A stretch of DNA of 64,000 nucleotides from Candidatus Altimarinota bacterium (GTDB lineage Bacteria; Patescibacteriota; Gracilibacteria; BD1-5; UBA6164): positions 1 through 64,000 of the forward strand of contig JAQTOS010000003.1 in NCBI GenBank assembly GCA_028713225.1. Reading direction: 5' to 3'. How positions within the stretch are numbered: the stretch's first letter is position 1; each line of letters begins with the position of its first letter. Under the pieces are notes generated by a model, which worked only from the letters and a program-made list of their open reading frames with translations, did no database searches and was not told the DNA's origin. Position numbers and translations under genes: made by a program. Positions 7,694 through 46,321 of this stretch are shown here, piece after piece.

Positions 7694-7831
7694 TTGACAT
7701 TTTTTAAAAAATACATATACTCCGAAGACTAACTTTTTTTATCTTTATATTTAAAAATGAGTCTTGGACTTTTGTTCATTTCTCGTTTAATATTGAAAGT
7801 AAAAATTAGTTTTCCAACAAGTTCATTTATT

Positions 7832-8157
7832 AAGATTAGAGAGTACCGACTAGATCAAAGGCTCCCATAAAATAATCTTGAAAAATAAATAAGTTGATTA
7901 GATTCATCCCTTAGCAATAAGGGAGAAACTAAAACATCAATGTAGATTTGAATTATTATTCTTAAATTAATTTATCAGAAAAATAATTCAAATCTATTGC
8001 AGAAAAAATCATTATAAGCTATGACACCAAAATATGCTTATAGGAATTATTGGTCATCAAGCTAATAAGTATTGGTTTAAAACCCAATTTTATCCACTAG
8101 GAAAAACCTAGTTTGATTGCTTTAGATTTAAGACCGCATTAGCGGCTCTTTTTTTTT
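7832..8157 (+). ncRNA. Candidate structured RNA, family not recognised
   Basis: No open frame, but unusually many helices for AT-rich spacer: 7832-7838 with 7873-7879; CCCTTA-GCAA-TAAGGG at 7908-7923; a perfect 15-bp stem 7943-7957 with 7982-7996; 8021-8030 with 8050-8057 (one bulge); 8014-8019 with 8036-8041, which crosses the previous helix and would form a pseudoknot; 8071-8075 with 8084-8088; CTAGG/CCTAG at 8097-8111; then a terminator. I searched by eye for RNase P, tmRNA, SRP and 6S signatures and did not find them. The 5' end is unknown and could lie upstream, in 7700-7831. Confidence 0.45.
8132..8157 (+). terminator. Intrinsic terminator of the candidate RNA
   Basis: CCGC-ATTA-GCGG stem followed by nine T. 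It points in the + direction although no + coding gene lies upstream. This is the best evidence that a non-coding transcript ends here. Confidence 0.7.
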
Positions 8158-8158
8158 G

Positions 8159-9973
8159 TTACATTTTTTCTGGCATTTCTATAGCTAATATTTTAAAAGC
8201 ATCTTTTAAAACAATAGAAAACATTTCAACAAGTTGTAATCTAGCTGTTTTAATTTCTTCATTTTCTTCGTTTATAACTGAAATATTATTATAAAAACTA
8301 TTGAATTTTTTAGTTAAATCATAGGCATATCAAGCCAAAATATGAGGAAAATTTCATTTAACTGTTTCCTCTAAAATTGATGGATAAGCAAAAATAGATT
8401 TAAGTAGTGAAGTTTCTTCTTGTAAATTAAAATTATATCATTCAACATTTGGGCAAGCACAAGGCATTGCCCCTACATCTTTGTAGGGGTGTCCCTTGTG
8501 GGCACCCATTTCAGATTTATTTAAAATATTTCTAGCTCTAACATAAGCATATTGTATATATGGACCAGAATTCCCTTCAAAAGTCATGAATTCATCCCAA
8601 TCAAAAACTACATCTGTAGTTCTATTTTTTGATAAATATCCGTATTTTATAGCTCAAATTCAGATAATATTAGCTAAAGAATTTAATTCAGTGTCTGAAA
8701 TTTCTTGTCTTTTCTCTAAGATTATATTTTTAGCTCTAGAAACTGCCTCATCAAGAAGAGCATCAAGACGAACAATTCTTCATTTTCTTGTACTCATTGC
8801 TCAATCTTTTAGAGAAATGAATCAATTATAAGCATGAATCATTTCAGTTTTTTCTCACCATCCTGCTAACTTAGCAGTTTCAAAAACTTGTTTTAAATGA
8901 AGTTGTTGTCTAACATCAACAAAATATATGATTTTTTCAGGATTCCAGTTTTCTATTCTATATTTTATTGCGGCCAAATCTGAAGCCAAATATCATTTTG
9001 TTCCATCTCTTTTTTGTAGCATACAACTTGGTATTTTTGTCTTTTCATCAAAAATAACTCAAACTGAATTATCATCATTTTGAGTAGCAACTTTTGCTTT
9101 AATTAGTTCTGCAACTATATCAGACATATTATATTTCAAATCTGGATAGTTTTCTAATTTTGGCAAATTTAGACCTTCATAAAAACTTTCTCCAATATTG
9201 AAGTCAGCCTTGATATGCAATTTATCAAGTTCTATTTGAGCCGAACTTATAGAATAAGCCGTGAATTTTTGCCATAATTCTACAGATTCTTTGTCTCCCT
9301 TAGAAAGAAGTTTAAAAGCTTCTCTAGTAGAATTTTCTAAATCAGTTTTTTCTTGTTTTGCTTCTTCTTCAATTTCAGCAGTAATTTTTACATATAATTC
9401 AAAAAGATGATTTACAGCATTTTCTTTTAGTTTTTCTTCATCTCACCAAGTTTTATAGGCAGTAATTAGCTTACCAAAGATAATACCCCAGTCTCCCCAG
9501 TGATTATCTCAGATAACTTTGTATCAAAGTTTTCTGTAAGTATTTATCATTGCTTGCCCTTGATTTGGTGTACACATATGACCTATATGAAGCGGTTTTC
9601 CTACATTTGCTCAGATATAATCTACTACTATAGTTTTTCACTTTCCCTCTCCAGTTTCTCAAAAAGTTTCTTTATTTGCATAAATTTCAGCAAAATAAGC
9701 TGACATTATATCTTTTGAAATGAAAATATTTACATAAGGTCCCGCAATATCTACTTTTGTAAATTCTCTACATTCTTCAAAAACAGATTTCAATTCTCCT
9801 GCTGTTTCCATAGGATTTTTCTTAAGCAATTTTGAAACATTAAAAGCTCAAAATGCATAATCTCACATTTCGTCTTTTGGAGGAATACTTAAATCAAAAT
9901 CCCCTAAATCTAACTCATACTTTTCCTTGATTTTATTTTTTATTATACTTTTTACTTGTTCTTCAGCAGTCAT
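8159..9973 (-). CDS. argS: Arginyl-tRNA synthetase with in-frame repeat insertion
   Basis: 604 residues, class I synthetase that charges tRNA-Arg. The HIGH motif appears as KPLHIGHM near residue 128, and the KMSKS-equivalent loop as AMSTRKGR near 391. The N-terminal additional domain and the C-terminal DALR anticodon-binding domain ([10 protein letters not shown]) are present. Residues about 489-507 are encoded by a REP-like palindromic pair (8451-8507). The insertion adds a Gly/Pro/Cys-rich loop (MPCACP) between two helices of the DALR domain without breaking the frame. Start ATG is at 9971-9973. Confidence 0.95.
8451..8507. repeat. REP-like inverted pair (BIME-like) inside argS
   Basis: Two palindromic units, each carrying GTAG at one end, face each other across a 6-bp centre. 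The right unit reads GTAG-GGGTG-t-CCC-TTGT-GGG-CACCC; the left is a divergent version in reverse orientation. GC content is far above the surroundings. The left unit matches 26617-26642 exactly over 26 bp in reverse complement. Such GTAG-headed hairpins are typical of REP sequences mobilised by RAYT transposases, none of which is in this window. Confidence 0.8.
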
Positions 9974-11933: not shown

Positions 11934-13397
11934 TTAAAATCCAGCAATTCTAGCTTGCTGAGCAATTTCTGAATCTAATAATGCACGATTATATATTTTT
12001 ACATCATCAATAATTCAATTGTACATAAATTGGTATGAGTCTTTTGTATAAGCTGTAGCGGAAGGAGAAGTATAAACTCCTCAAATAGTAGTAGGAATAA
12101 TAGGAGTATGACTTAATATAGCTCTATTATTATCAAAAATACAATTAACTATTTTAATTCAATTTATATATAAACCTCAATTATCTCAATTATAAACAAA
12201 TGTTACAAATTTAAATTTATTATCACTTACTTCATTTAAATTGAAAACATTATCATCTTGGACATATCAACATCAAGCTCAAGTAACTCAAGGAATTCAA
12301 TTTAATTTCATATTAATTTTTCAAGCTATCCGATTATTTATATGACCTACATATCAAATTCATACACCATAATTTACAATATCTCATCAATTACCATTTC
12401 ATTTTCATATAATACTTGCCCAATTATAAGTCCCTAATCAATCAGTTTTTATAATCATTGAAAAAGTAGCAATATTTCATAAATTTAAACTATTTCAAGT
12501 TCATAAATTTACAACTGTTCCAGTTGAAAATCTAGAAGTTCCAGTTATATCAAACTGCATAGCTTTTCATAATATTCATCATGTATATGTTCAAGCAAAA
12601 TTATTATATCAATTAAGCGTATCTCGAGTTGCCCTATAAATAGTTCCATCATTTCAATTACCACTCAAATCTTTTAATTTAGTTCAATTAAGACTTTCCA
12701 TATCCCAATATCAAACAAGATTAGAATCAAAGTTTTTAAAACTAATATCTTTTTTCTTTGAGCAAGTTGCAGAATTGCTTGTTACTAAGTTATTTCATCA
12801 GTCTATAACAAAACAAACATTTGGGTCAAATATTCAAGAAGCAGTATTTACACTTCAAGTTACTGTTATTAGACTTGGTAAACTTGGGTCAAATGAATAG
12901 TTTCATTTAACAAGTGCTTTTGTAGCACTAGCATAAGTAGTATTTACAAAAGAATTATATGAAACAGAGTTTTCTAAATCAGCTCGTATTTGATAATATT
13001 TTCAGTTTCAAGAAGTAGAATATACATAATATGAACTAGTTTTCGGGTCTTTTATTCATCACATTAATTTTATAGCATTTGAAACTGTAGTTCATAAAGT
13101 TCATTGAATAATAATAGTATTTCATCAAGTTAGAGTTGTTGGAGAATCTGGACTTGGATAAGTAGATGATTTTATAGAATATATTTCAAGTCAATCTTGA
13201 GCTGATTTGATAGATGTAGTTCTATTTGCATCTCTAGCATCTGAAGTATAGCTTTGATAACTAATAAAACCTATAGTAGCAAGAATAGCTAAAATAGTAA
13301 TAACTATGATTAATTCCACTAATGTGAAGGCTGATTTTCTCTTGCTAGAGATGTTTTGTCAAAACATCTCTACGTTTTCCGTATTTCATATTTTCAT
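11934..13397 (-). CDS. Prepilin-like protein with LamG/ConA-like domain
   Basis: 487 residues. A prepilin site KRKSAFTLVELIIVITI is followed by a T4P stalk helix. The C-terminal part from about residue 240 (LVGYWDMESLNGTKLKDLSGNGNDGT ... GGILGKAMQFDITG ... IIDDVKIYNRALLDSEI) is a LamG/concanavalin-like jelly-roll domain of the kind that binds carbohydrate or protein ligands. This would put an adhesin on a pilus. The leader is unusually long, because a palindromic repeat lies in frame within it. The ATG inside the repeat (MFGQNISSKRKSAFTL) would give an ordinary 11-residue leader, so the true start is uncertain. Confidence 0.82.
13347..13371. repeat. GTAG-type palindromic repeat in prepilin leader
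   Basis: Arms AGAGATGTTTT and its exact complement around GTC; on the - strand it is headed GTAGAGATG. It lies within the leader-peptide coding region and supplies a potential start codon. Confidence 0.75.
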
Positions 13398-20990: not shown

Positions 20991-21023
20991 AAAAAATAGC
21001 CCCAAATTTGGGACTATTTTTTA
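20991..21023 (-). terminator. Terminator of the GHKL/repeat/peptidase gene
   Basis: AAAAAATAGCCCCAAATTTG stem start with a near-complementary right arm and T-run, overlapping the - strand stop. It is nearly identical to the hairpin at 26878-26911 on the other side of the same gene. Confidence 0.8.
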
Positions 21024-24000
21024 TACTCATTCACGAGTCATCATTTTCAAAATATCTCTTTGTATTTTTTCAAAACTATGTTCGTGTTCCAAGTCTTTTT
21101 GATGACTTCAAAATCAAGTATTTTGCCAATTAATTTTATTTCAAGTTAACTGCCTAAAATTTTTTCATTCATTTAAAATTTTATCAAAATCAATTCCATA
21201 TCATTTTACAAAATCTTCAACTAAATGAGTAAACTCATGAGTCATAAGCTCTATTGTTTTATATTCTTCTTCATTTTTGTATTTATTCCAAAAGTTATCG
21301 TTGAAATTAAAATACATTTTATCACTCGTTTCAAATCAATAATCTACAGCTCTTCATTCTTCTTTATCTTTTCTTAAGTAAAATCAAAAAATAACTTCGG
21401 TTCCAAAAAGTCTTTTAACTAAAGGAGAAAAAGTTCTATCTATTTTTTCTAAAAATTCTTTTTTCTCTAATTTTTCTTTTTCTTCAATTTTATCCAAATC
21501 TATTTTTTCTCTATCTCAATGTTCCATTCAAATATTTAAATTCGTTGCATTATTATTTATAGCATAAGTATCTTTTGTATGTTTTTTCAAAAATACTTCA
21601 TCATCCCTTCTTTTTTTTAATTCTCTGATACTTATAATTTCTCATTTGTTTTCTACCTTTAGATTTATAAGATATTGAATCATAAGATTTTTATTTTTTA
21701 ATTCCTCTATTTCTCATAAATTTAAAATTCAAGAATTATTTACTCTATTCGCTAAATTTACTATTTTATTATCAAATTTCATTTCATAAATATCAAGTCC
21801 ATAATAATCAAGTGGCATCATAGGAAGTCTAGTCTTCCCTGCTAGGTAATCTTTTATTATAAGTTTTGTAAATAGATTAAAAATATGTGGTCTCAAAACA
21901 TCTATATTTTCCTCAAAATCTGTAATTGCATTTCTTGTTTTTGTAAGCTGAATTTTACTTGGTAAATCTAGACTATATCAATTTTTCCTTATATAATCAA
22001 TCATAAAATCTGGCAAGAAATTCAGATATTCATCTTTTATTTCACTCAAAAATAAATTATCTTTTGTTAGTCTTTCTTGTTTATCTTTATTTTGTTTCAA
22101 ACTTAATTTTCAAAATTCTGGAATTTCCACTGTTTCTAAAATTTGTATATTTTCTGAATTTAGGGCATTTTTTCAGTTATATTTAATTTCTATATCGTCG
22201 ACATTTCATACATATTTTTGCAAATTATTAATTCAAATCAAAGCTCCAATATTTCCTCAAATTCATTCACTATCATCTACTCTTTCGATTATTGTTCCCA
22301 TAAATTCTTCATTTCTGATATCATATTTTATCTCAAAATCTATGATATCCTTGTTTTCATTATATTTAGGTTTTAGATTCAAATAAGTAGTTTTTCAGTT
22401 TCATGAATTTGTTTTTAGGTTTACTTCACGAGCTCAAATAGATAGAGAATAAAAACCTTGACCAAACATTCAAGTTGCAGTTTCATCGTTTTCTTTTCCA
22501 GATTTTCCTGGAGTAAGCAAATATTTAAATACTTCATAATTAGTCATTCCAATATTATCAGACATTCTAGATATCCACTTATTATCATTTTGATAAAAAT
22601 TTACGTCTAAATCATCTAAGCCTTCTCATAAGTTTCAATTTTTTCTTGCTTTAATTATTGCATCTCTAGAATTTTGAACACTTTCCCTAAGCCAAATCAT
22701 ACTTGCTCTATCTTGTCCATCTATAGTAGAAGTGATATTTCTTTCAAAAGGAAGTCTATTTTTTAGTTTTTTATTTATTTCTTCTTTTAGCTTTGATATT
22801 ATTTCAAGTCAATTTCCAAAAGACAAGTTTTCTATTTCTTCATCGAAATATCTAGAAATACCTATAATATCCGTCAAAAGCAAATTATTTTCAGTTTCAA
22901 ACTCTACTCTATTCTCTTCTTCTTGCAAAAATTCTCATCACTTACATAAAAATTCTACAAAACTAGAAATTTTTTGAGGATAAGTTTTTTTAGGTTTTCT
23001 ATTTTTTACTAAATCATCAATTGTATAATTATTTTTAATTGCTTCTTTTATAGATATTTCTTCAAAATAATCATATTCCTCATCACTAAAAAAATCTTCT
23101 AAAATAGTATCTCAAATAAAAGTTTTCCGTCATCATCTTCATTCAATAAACACCATTCATTCAAATTCTCAATTACTTCATTTATAAACTCCTTGTAATA
23201 TATTATATTTTATTCATCAAATCACAACTTCATCATAACTTTCTCAATCAGAAATAGAATGAATATGATCTAATTCATCATAATCCTTTGCAACGAGATT
23301 ATCATAAATAAATTCGTCATAAATATAAAAATTTGTTCATTCTTTTATTTTTAATAAAAATTCATCATACTTATTTACTGGAATATTATCATTTATAAAT
23401 CCATCAATAAATAATAGTTTTTTTCACTGCTTTGTTTTTATTAAATATTCATTATTTTTTGAAAGGAATTTTATACTTCCAAAAGTAAGATTATTTTCTT
23501 TTAGATAGTTTTTTATTGTTGTAAGATTTTTTAGAGTTTCGTTTTCTGGAGCAAAAAAATCTTCTATAACAGTATCTCAGATAAAAGTATACCATTTTCA
23601 ATCTATATGAAAAGTTCATCTAATTTCTCAGTCTAATCATGTATATACATGCCTTAAATCATCACATTTGTATCATCAAATTGTTTCTATTATTTCATCT
23701 CAGATAAATAAATAGCTTTTTCATTTAATATTAACTGATCCTATAAATTTTCAATCTTTTCAAGTATGAACATTTCATAAACCTCTGCAATCTTTTAAGC
23801 AAGTTATTTCTATTATTTCATCTCAAATAAATAATTTCCATTCTTTATCTATCAAAATTTTTCATCTAAGGTTTCAATCTTCTCAAGTGTGAATATCTCA
23901 TAAAACTTTACAATCTTTTGACCAAATTGTTTCTATTATTTCATCTCAAATAAATAATTTCCGTTCTCAATCTATTTTAATTCTTCATCTCAATTTTCAA

Positions 24001-26816
24001 TCTTCTCAAGTGTGGATATCATCTAAATAATAATATTCTTTTCATCAAATTGTTTCTATTATTTCATCTCAAATAAATAAATAGCGTCTTCATCTAATAT
24101 TAATACTTCATCTAATCTCTCCATTGTTTCAAATATGAATATCTCCAATATCATCAAATTTATATCATCAAATTGTTTCTATTATTTCATCTCAAACAAA
24201 CAATTTCCGGAATCAATTTTTTTGAACAACTCATACTAATTCTCAATTTAATCATATATTTACTTCTAATAAGTATTCAAAATTTTCTCATCAAATTTTA
24301 TCTATAACTTTATTTCAAACGAACAAAATATTTTTTCATTCTGTTGTTTCTACTAAATATTCATTATTTTTTCAAACAAATACAAGCTCCTTAAAACTAA
24401 GATTATTTTCTTTTAGATATTTTTTTATTATTGTAAAATCTTTTAAAGAATCATTTTTTTCTTCTATTTCTTCTTCTATTTCAACTCATTCAAACTTTGC
24501 AAAAAGTTCTTCTATATCATTCCTTGATAAATCTTCAAATTCTTTTAAATATTCAATTATATATTTTGCATTAGTTTCATCTTCTAGTAAATCCATTACT
24601 TGAATTAAGTATTTTTCAGCATTTTCTAACTTATGAATTTTTCCAGAAAATTTAATAAATACATCTAAAATATTTGAAGAATTTTCTTTTGCAAAATTAT
24701 AAACTTTTTTAGAAAAATTTTTTGAAATTCTTTCAGGATAAAAGATAAATGAATCAATAAGATAAGAAAACCACTGTTCATAAGTCCAAGTATTACAAAT
24801 AATATTTTTAGTAATTTTATAATCACTTTTAATAACATCATCAATATCTTCTTTGATAGAAATTATTTTTCTTTGAATTTTAATATTTTCGTGATTTTGA
24901 AAATCTTCTACAATTTTTTCTAATCATTCTATATATTCTTCTACATCTTTTAAACTATAATATTCTTTTTCTTCATTTTCTTTTCAGTCACTCTTAATTT
25001 TCTCTTCTATTTCTTTTTTCTCTTCAAAAATTCCATTATCCTCAATAACACCATAAAAAACTATATCATCTCATTGTTCATAGCCAGTATTTAGATTTAC
25101 ACTTGCATTTATTTTGGCTAAATCTGATGAATTTTGAGTATATTTTGAGTTTACTAAAACTGTATCTTTTAGTATCAGATAGTCATATCTGGCATTTTCT
25201 CCAAATTCTATTTCATAAAATTCTTTTTGTTTATTTTTTATATTTACTAGCTTTTTGATATTTGGAATTTTTGTAATTTCAAAATTTAGTAATTCTGGGT
25301 CTACAAAAACTATATTATCTTGATTTGATAATATTTCTTGAATTTGTGGGATTGAAGCTAGAACTATTTTTCAATTTGCTTCTAAATCTCATTTTATCTT
25401 TCTAAAAGCCTCTTTTGAAACTTTATTTATATCATATTTTGATTTTGTTGAAGCTTTTGATGATTCTCTTGATTTTAGCTGTTTGATAATTTTTGCGATT
25501 ATTTCAAGTAGCATTAATTTTTCTTTTTCATCATGCACTTTATCTGAAATTTTTTCTATTGCCATTTTTAGAGAAATAACTACTTCTTTTGTAAGTTCTA
25601 TCTTATTTCTTGATTCTGGAAGCCAAGTAAAACTAGGAAGTTCTAGACAAAATTCTTCTATATCATAACTTGTAATAGCAGAAAAATCTTCTATCAAAAC
25701 TCATCCTACTTGCAATCTAATAGCAGTTTTTTTCTCTTTTGTTTCATTATTTTCTCTTATTTTTTTATCATTTTTAAAATGTTTATAGAAAAATGCAGTT
25801 TCATCACTTGTATGTTTTTCTATTTGTGAATCTGTCATAGAATCAGAATTTAATCTCTTTTTTCCCGACATATTTGGAGAAAGTAATTTTTCTGATAAGT
25901 CTTTTGAACTCATTCAGATTCAAGAATCTATTACTCTAAATCAGTTTTCATTGACTTCTATTTTTACTTCTTCTTGTGGTAAAATCAGATTTTCACCGTT
26001 ATAATAAATATATTCTTCTAATTTATTTATTTTTTCTCAATTTAATAAAACTTTTACTTTTTTATTTGTTTGAAATCTGATTATTAAAAACGATTTTAGA
26101 TTATCTTGTTCTAAGCGACTTAATTTCTTTTCCAAAATTACTTCTGTTCAATTATATTTTTTATCAATTCAAACACTTCAAATAAGATTTTCTCCATTTT
26201 CTTCTTTGATACTTATTTGAAATCATTTCTCTCAAGAACTTTTTGTTTGAACTAGGATTTTACTATCTCATCATTTTAAAAATTTTAAAGATTGATAAAA
26301 TCCTTCTCAAAATCTTCAAATATTTTTATCTGTAACAGTTGCATCTATTGCATTAGCTACAAGTTCTACAAGCCCTTGAGCTATATATTCTCACTGATTA
26401 TTTATAAGTTTTCCAACATTTGGTCAATTATATTTTTTTCAAGTCACTGATAAGCTTCTTGATTTTTTGAAAACTTTTAAAAAATCATCATAATTTAAAT
26501 CTTCTCCAGAAGTCATAATTACTTCAGTAAAAGCATTGAAAGTATCCAAATTCATATATCTTGGAATTCCTAAATATTCTCTGAAATCAGCAAAAAATAA
26601 ATACCAAGAAGTATTTGTAGGGGCAATGCCTTGTGCTTGCCCTTCTATCTGTGCTTTATTATCACTTATAGGGTACCCACAAGGGGCACCCCTACGGATT
26701 ATTTCTCTGATTTTATTTCTATTTTGGAACAAAATATTAGCTAAATTTATCTCATTTATATTATTTTTTCCACCCAAACTTTGAGCCAAAGTTTCAAATA
26801 TTTCTTTATTTTGCAT
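21021..26816 (-). CDS. Large protein: two GHKL ATPase modules, 41-aa repeats, HExxH motif
   Basis: 1931 residues, one uninterrupted frame under code 25, and not a family I recognise as a whole. In order: residues 40-67 are encoded by a REP-like repeat. A first GHKL-type module has ELVANAIDA (N box, about 150) and GRFGEGFYQS, with DSGIGMSSKDLSEKLLSPNMSGKK-type G1/lid sequence only later (about 297-320). A charged helical region follows. Five or more 41-residue repeats with core FVGDEIIETIGG span about 815-1085. A second GHKL module has RESVQNSRDA (about 1378), SDNIGM (about 1420) and GMFGQGFYS (about 1450). The C-terminal domain has THEFTHLVE (about 1858), a zinc-metallopeptidase HExxH signature. 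No signal peptide, so probably cytoplasmic. Role unknown; a chaperone-, defence- or effector-like protein is possible. Start 26816 was preferred to an ATG at 26879 that lies in a hairpin. Confidence 0.75.
23560..24380 (-). repeat. Tandem 123-bp coding repeats
   Basis: The marker TTGTTTCTATTATTTCATCT or a one-base variant starts at 23681, 23804, 23927, 24050 and 24173, exactly 123 bp (41 codons) apart. Outer, more diverged units extend the array on both sides. The translated core is F(V/I)GDEIIETIGG followed by an Asp/His-Gly-rich segment, reminiscent of short beta-hairpin (WG-like or propeller) repeats. Confidence 0.85.
26617..26695. repeat. REP-like inverted pair in the GHKL gene
   Basis: Two GTAG-headed palindromic units, 26617-26642 and 26671-26695, point away from one another with GTAG on the outside. 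This is the opposite layout to the argS copy. The first unit is identical over 26 bp to the left unit in argS; the second differs from the other argS unit at about two positions. It is in frame and encodes residues about 40-67. Confidence 0.8.
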
Positions 26817-26877: not shown

Positions 26878-26911
26878 AAAAAAATAGCCCCAAATTTGGG
26901 GCTATTTTTTT
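26878..26911. terminator. Hairpin between DUF1800-DUF1501 and GHKL genes
   Basis: Perfect stem ATAGCCCC(AAATTT)GGGGCTAT with A- and T-runs. It lies upstream of the GHKL gene and just after the + strand complement of the DUF fusion's 3' end (stop at 26928 is on the other side), so what it terminates is unclear. It almost duplicates the hairpin at 20991. Confidence 0.65.
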
Positions 26912-38001: not shown

Positions 38002-38005
38002 AAAA

Positions 38006-38034
38006 GTAGTGAACGGTTTAAAACCGTTCACTAC
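38006..38034. repeat. 29-bp GTAG palindrome, also terminator-like
   Basis: GTAGTGAACGGTT-TAA-AACC... is a near-perfect palindrome five bases after smpB, flanked by A and T runs. It is related to 46271-46299, with paired (compensatory) differences, and may double as a bidirectional terminator. Confidence 0.8.
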
Positions 38035-38050
38035 TTTTAATTTATATTAG

Positions 38051-46265: not shown

Positions 46266-46270
46266 AATAA

Positions 46271-46299
46271 GTAGGGAATGGGTTAAAACCATTCCCTAC
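46271..46299. repeat. 29-bp GTAG palindrome after yraN
   Basis: GTAGGGAATGG-core palindrome ending CCTAC, five bases after the yraN stop. It is the same length and central TTAAAACC as the element at 38006-38034. Confidence 0.8.
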
Positions 46300-46321
46300 T
46301 ATCACAAATACTATTTTTAAC

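Follow-up and report, generated by a model that had tools for sequence, protein, structure and literature searches.

An in-frame GTAG-type REP dimer in the arginyl-tRNA synthetase gene of a bacterium that reads TGA as glycine

The argS gene of the genome studied here contains a 57-nt insert made of two GTAG-headed palindromes, which is read in frame, so that a loop of the anticodon-binding domain is longer by about 19 residues. The REP anatomy of this segment and its insertion into the gene are well supported. The complete account, in which a BIME-like dimer of the GTAG superfamily of REPs, belonging to a class with a CCTTGTG loop, was moved by a RAYT into argS after the split from the known congener and has been tolerated since, is probable (about 0.8).

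Results

Structure of the argS insert

The genome (1.24 Mb, 97% complete, 19 contigs) reads TGA as Gly, its ORFs being open under translation table 25. The window, that is, the whole 64-kb stretch of DNA that was analyzed, has 26% GC and contains the following features around argS:

8159–9973, minus strand: argS, arginyl-tRNA synthetase, 604 aa under code 25 (TIGR00456; Pfam tRNA-synt_1d, DALR_1)
8451–8507 (57 nt), minus strand: in-frame REP dimer in argS, about 19 extra residues, 490–508 (direct reading, relatives, AF2 model, folding)
8477 to 8451, minus strand: unit A, TGTAGGGGCAATGCCTTGTGCTTGCCC, 27 nt, with exact copies at 26616–26642 and in Chloroflexi and Leptolyngbya MAGs
8478–8481, no strand: spacer TCTT, 4 nt, separating both GTAG ends (direct reading)
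8482–8507, plus strand: unit B, TGTAGGGGTGTCCCTTGTGGGCACCC, 26 nt (direct reading)

The gene contains 19 TGA codons; its product scores 412 bits against TIGR00456, over the cut-off, and matches tRNA-synt_1d and, at residues 473–604, DALR_1. As seen by direct reading, the two palindromes (27 and 26 nt) stand head to head, and each is built as GTAG followed by GGGG, a stem, and CCC. The insert lies in a loop where the DALR (anticodon-binding) domain starts; its first base is the third of codon 489, hence the extra residues are approximately 490–508; the earlier note on this DNA, which had proposed about 19 in-frame residues in this loop, was right to within one position (489–507).

The palindrome signal is beyond chance. 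The sequence TGTAGGGG occurs three times in the window, against 0.07 expected, and none of 100 shuffles reaches three; the minus strand of the insert folds with z = −4.0, with none of 200 shuffles as good; and unit B falls in one of only five stretches of the window with 30 bases at 60% GC. The direct reading, the count and the folding together confirm the pair of GTAG-headed palindromes that the earlier note had placed at 8451–8507, and the pairing of such units in opposite orientations supports its interpretation as a REP/BIME-type element. A loose scan of the window for GTAG hairpins gives 17 matches, compared with 21 in the reversed control, i.e., no excess.

A further match to TGTAGGGG, on contig C16 of the same genome, was rejected as a REP, as it lies inside 16S rRNA. 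A possible AAAT direct repeat around the insert was discounted as too short. Positions 7700–8150 of the window, about 450 nt between two genes, have no convincing ORF and end in a terminator-like hairpin; this region yields no Rfam match and no tRNA or tmRNA.

A second site in the same genome

An identical unit is found 18 kb from the argS insert, with the following features:

21021–26816, minus strand: GHKL-type ORF (code 25), which has the second REP pair close to its N-terminus and whose only match, a weak one, is to HATPase_c_3
26616–26642, plus strand: second copy of unit A, 27/27 identical, inside the GHKL-type gene (direct reading)
26695 to 26671, minus strand: unit B', GTAGGGGTGCCCCTTGTGGGTACCC, a variant, tail-to-tail partner of the second unit A (direct reading)

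The identity thus extends over 27 bases rather than the 26 first noted. Units are paired in opposite orientation at both sites, and the arrangements of the two dimers are, as the earlier note had it, opposite: the GTAG ends are inside at argS and outside at 26616–26695. Another copy therefore exists, though the stem class is rare, being represented in the whole genome by four units at these two sites only; a different GTAG class has 30 matches in this genome, and the argS class is multicopy in other genomes. Both sites are intragenic, while REPs of the GTAG family are mostly extragenic; this tendency is no strict criterion, since the family is also known to include intragenic REPs (Di Nocera et al., 2013; PMC3733652). 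The GHKL-type gene has no homologue among 40 relatives.

Both ends of the GHKL-type gene are flanked by near-identical terminator-like palindromes, AAAAAATAGCCCCAAATTTGGGG/ACTATTTTTT, at 20991–21022 and 26879–26910. Three more palindromes with a GTAG...CTAC "double foot" and other stems are seen in the window at 13345–13373, 38005–38035, and 46270–46300; those at 38005 and 46270, just past the 3' ends of ORFs, may be terminators.

The ArgS loop in relatives

Comparison of 39 ArgS proteins from relatives and from this genome shows that the residues of the insert are absent from the congener (G001) and from nearly all other relatives; solved ArgS structures are also shorter at this loop. The alignment that the earlier note had called for thus bears it out. 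In the AF2 model of ArgS (mean pLDDT 87), residues 490–510 form the sole segment with pLDDT below 50, hence they likely constitute a flexible surface loop. A difference of a few residues in the congener loop means that neither an exact empty site nor a target preference can be defined from it.

The same loop has acquired several palindromes independently in related bacteria. G005 has in this ArgS loop a pair of units that belongs to the same class and is translated in a different frame (HKGHPY against PQGKPL), with a longer spacer; two other species of the same genus have no such pair. ArgS of G009 contains a palindrome of another kind at the same loop (ATCCCCTTTCATAAAGGGGAT) and one more near residue 374, and further repeat-like inserts occur in G031, G024, and G008 at one or the other of these loops (near 374 and 489), that of G031 at the argS-insert loop being again an unrelated palindrome. 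The palindrome statistics of these last inserts are individually modest, with 2–10 of 200 shuffles as good.

At the same two loops, in-frame repeat-like inserts of a non-GTAG kind are seen in the argS loci L038, L040, L046, and L025, with the peptides VIPAKAGI, VIARNEAIQ, CHPELDSGS, NPPIIPFHKG, and HPQPLPSKEG. Separately, ArgS of G008, G010, and G031 (L038, L039, and L040) has mutually unrelated extra segments of about 60–70 aa near residue 206; read as DNA, these show no evident GTAG unit.

Distribution of the unit class

We searched for the class across genomes with the pattern TGTAGGGGCAATNCCTTGTGNTTGCCC, which matched at least 120 stretches, in Thiomargarita, Parabeggiatoa, Chloroflexi, Rufibacter, cyanobacteria, Desulfobacterota, and others; a few viral contigs also bear the motif class. 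The exact 27-mer of unit A is present in one Chloroflexi MAG and one Leptolyngbya MAG. For this reason the identity between the two sites is a poor clock: the observation of the earlier note stands, while its conclusion that the element moved recently is weak, as the identity could be due to the unit being conserved across phyla. The recency of the argS insertion rests better on its absence from the congener.

Among the matches listed for other phyla, 139/143 lie outside ORFs of at least 150 aa and 4/143 inside, whereas in the code-25 clade 19 of the 21 listed places lie inside such ORFs. The odds ratio is large; since the two sets of counts were obtained under different genetic codes, with different patterns and sampling, and at different coding densities, matches from the same genome are non-independent, and paired units are partly double-counted in the clade figure, only the direction of the difference is claimed. 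Recoding alone does not explain the intragenic habit, because open frames of the units are only slightly more common under code 25 (646/840) than under code 11 (617/840). The genes hit in the clade encode MetG, UvrB, UvrD-type helicases, MutL, a Pol I-type exonuclease, RrnaAD, and spermidine synthase, the same mix as in Di Nocera et al. (PMC3733652).

RAYTs of this genome and of relatives

The Y1_Tnp profile (PF01797) finds nothing in this genome. A profile built from the RAYTs of relatives finds one intact gene:

Contig C12, locus L241, 1159–1791: RAYT, 211 aa (profile of relatives' RAYTs)

The protein has the HUH motif (MPNHFH), followed by an in-frame inverted pair of GTAG hairpins, GTAGGGAACGAATATTTTCGTTCC (units also given as GGAACGAATATTTTCG), which lies between this motif and the following helix. 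It has the HUH motif, the conserved W region, and REPs in frame in the stretch from HUH to Y, which is the anatomy of RAYT subclass 2.4; the assignment to this subclass is a putative one, made by motif and loop anatomy, as the score against NF047646 is 54.6 bits, and this RAYT and the related ones (54.6–67.8) all fall below the curated cut-off of 80.

The RAYT-borne unit has 30 matches in the genome at up to three mismatches, 12 of them exact, against none for reversed controls, and is the most numerous REP family found there. Its matches are mostly intergenic, and a few are in frame in genes. One of the latter is in the gene of the 2-oxoacid:acceptor oxidoreductase alpha subunit (L006, 1147–2853, on contig C10). 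This insert is missing from the subunit in relatives, though G009 (L324) has one of its own nearby, resembling a GTAG palindrome.

The search for a RAYT proposed in the earlier note was therefore successful in part: one is present, and the REP that it carries differs from the argS unit. Neither PF01797 nor the relatives' profile reveals in this genome a RAYT carrying a unit of the CCTTGTG (argS) type, so that no RAYT found here carries or is flanked by the same REP; the RAYT present, bearing another REP with 30 matches, is unsupported as the mover of the argS unit. In G005, which has five units, no RAYT was found either.

RAYTs with CCTTGTG units in the loop after the HUH motif do exist in G008, Rufibacter, Methylobacter, and Nitratifractor; that of G009 is broken, its frame stopping just after the loop. 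Among related RAYTs across phyla, 31 of 33 have GTAG or CTAC in this loop. The loop palindrome is equalled by at most 1 of 100 shuffles in 21 of the 33, and the mean stem score is 10.8 in the loop against 6.3 in flanking parts of the same genes. A RAYT gene of G008 (L092, 882–1451, on its contig C8) contains an in-frame GTAG double-foot palindrome, APVGTGLKPVPT. The idea that in-frame REPs inside RAYT genes are unrecorded was dropped, as they are described by Quentin et al. (2018; PMC6006769).

Discussion

Origin and maintenance of the insert

The proposed mechanism starts from a RAYT with REPs in its own reading frame (subclass 2.4 of Quentin, or RAYT group 4), which would mobilize the units as single-stranded DNA. 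In a compact genome most insertions would strike genes, and the survivors would be those that are in frame, free of stops, and situated in tolerant loops. The argS dimer would have been inserted in frame after the species split from the known congener. Its persistence would be due to its open frame and to its position in a variable loop, predicted to be disordered, that links the first helix of the anticodon-binding domain to the next helix; there it is probably neutral for ArgS. The mover of the argS class has probably been lost, lies in the unsequenced few per cent of the genome, or was imported transiently; the RAYT present today bears, and matches, another REP family.

A transposase in the cell would be unnecessary if the pair had been imported as foreign DNA, by natural transformation or phage, from a source rich in the class, and joined by recombination or end joining. 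We consider this unlikely: although the genome has yielded no RAYT bearing the argS-type unit, the same 27-mer is found in unrelated phyla, and a few viral contigs bear the motif class, the insertion is a precise one of 57 nt with no foreign flank, the alternative dimer arrangements of the four units at the two sites are what REP mobilization is expected to leave, and RAYTs with such units are present in the relatives G008 and G009. Selection for a role, either of an RNA hairpin in the argS mRNA or of the loop in ArgS, is improbable. It would suit the strong hairpin of the sense strand and the gain of inserts at the same loop by several relatives; these inserts, however, share neither sequence nor reading frame nor family, the AF2 model shows the loop as disordered, and the same class is seen in many unrelated genes.

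The pair of the same class at the G005 ArgS loop might also be taken as a trace of an ancestral loop that was lost in relatives. This reading is already disfavoured and very improbable, given that the loop is missing in the congener, in the genus mates of G005, and in almost all other relatives, that the G005 pair differs in reading frame and spacer, and that solved ArgS structures have no such segment. Finally, repeats are error-prone in MAGs, yet an artefact of assembly or binning has next to no chance of accounting for an insert that preserves the frame in a contig of 163 kb, belongs to a class seen at two sites with different flanks, and is accompanied by similar insertions in several independent genomes and, in its own genome, by 30 more GTAG units from another class. 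RAYT-mediated insertion of a REP dimer, tolerated in ArgS, is hence the reading that we retain.

Significance

A broader generalization is tentative and may well prove wrong: that in the clade with TGA read as Gly certain loops of essential proteins, those of ArgS near 374 and 489 and one in an oxidoreductase alpha subunit, have been invaded in frame repeatedly and independently by unrelated palindrome families, and that REPs which are extragenic elsewhere are mainly intragenic here. If so, the code-25 clade would be a natural experiment on the way in which new protein segments arise from transposable palindromes. One loop of an essential enzyme has received several insertions independently, and whether they are no more than tolerated can be tested directly. 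REP insertion into genes, so far recorded in a few Proteobacteria, Rickettsia, and others, is now seen in a recoded candidate-phylum lineage; the same REP unit recurs base for base in unrelated phyla; and the abundant REP family of the genome is tied to a transposase gene that contains this REP in its own reading frame.

Comparison with known systems

Rickettsia palindromic elements (RPE) occupy many protein genes of a small genome, where they are read in frame and tolerated as extra loops. The elements described here work like RPE in that they are inserted in frame into unrelated protein genes; the likeness is one of habit, and the GTAG REP sequence and the link to RAYTs set them apart.

The closest counterparts are the GTAG-tagged REPs and BIMEs of Di Nocera et al. 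(2013; PMC3733652), in which GTAG stands at the foot of a hairpin of 20–40 nt, inverted REP dimers have two arrangements, and intragenic dimers code for 20–30 residues in proteins including tRNA synthetases and those of repair genes. REPtrons may be missing there, so that a RAYT with the same REP in the same genome is usual, not required. The argS insert shares the GTAG-foot hairpin, the inverted dimers, and the intragenic coding; it differs in that the stem class occupies two sites only, that the class is mostly intragenic in the clade, and that the host reads TGA as Gly.

Quentin et al. (2018; PMC6006769) describe RAYT subclass 2.4, in which REPs lie in frame after the HUH motif and before the tyrosine region. 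The RAYTs of this genome and of its relatives carry in-frame REPs at that place, including the GTAG...CTAC double foot, as in subclass 2.4 or group 4; they differ in being encoded by TGA-recoded genes of a Gracilibacteria-like lineage, which the searched parts of that paper do not name, and the RAYT of this genome differs further in having no unit of the argS type. Neither this kind of element nor its presence inside genes is thus new, since GTAG REPs within genes and RAYTs that contain REPs in frame have both been described; the lineage, the repeated use of one loop, and the identity of the unit across phyla are the additions.
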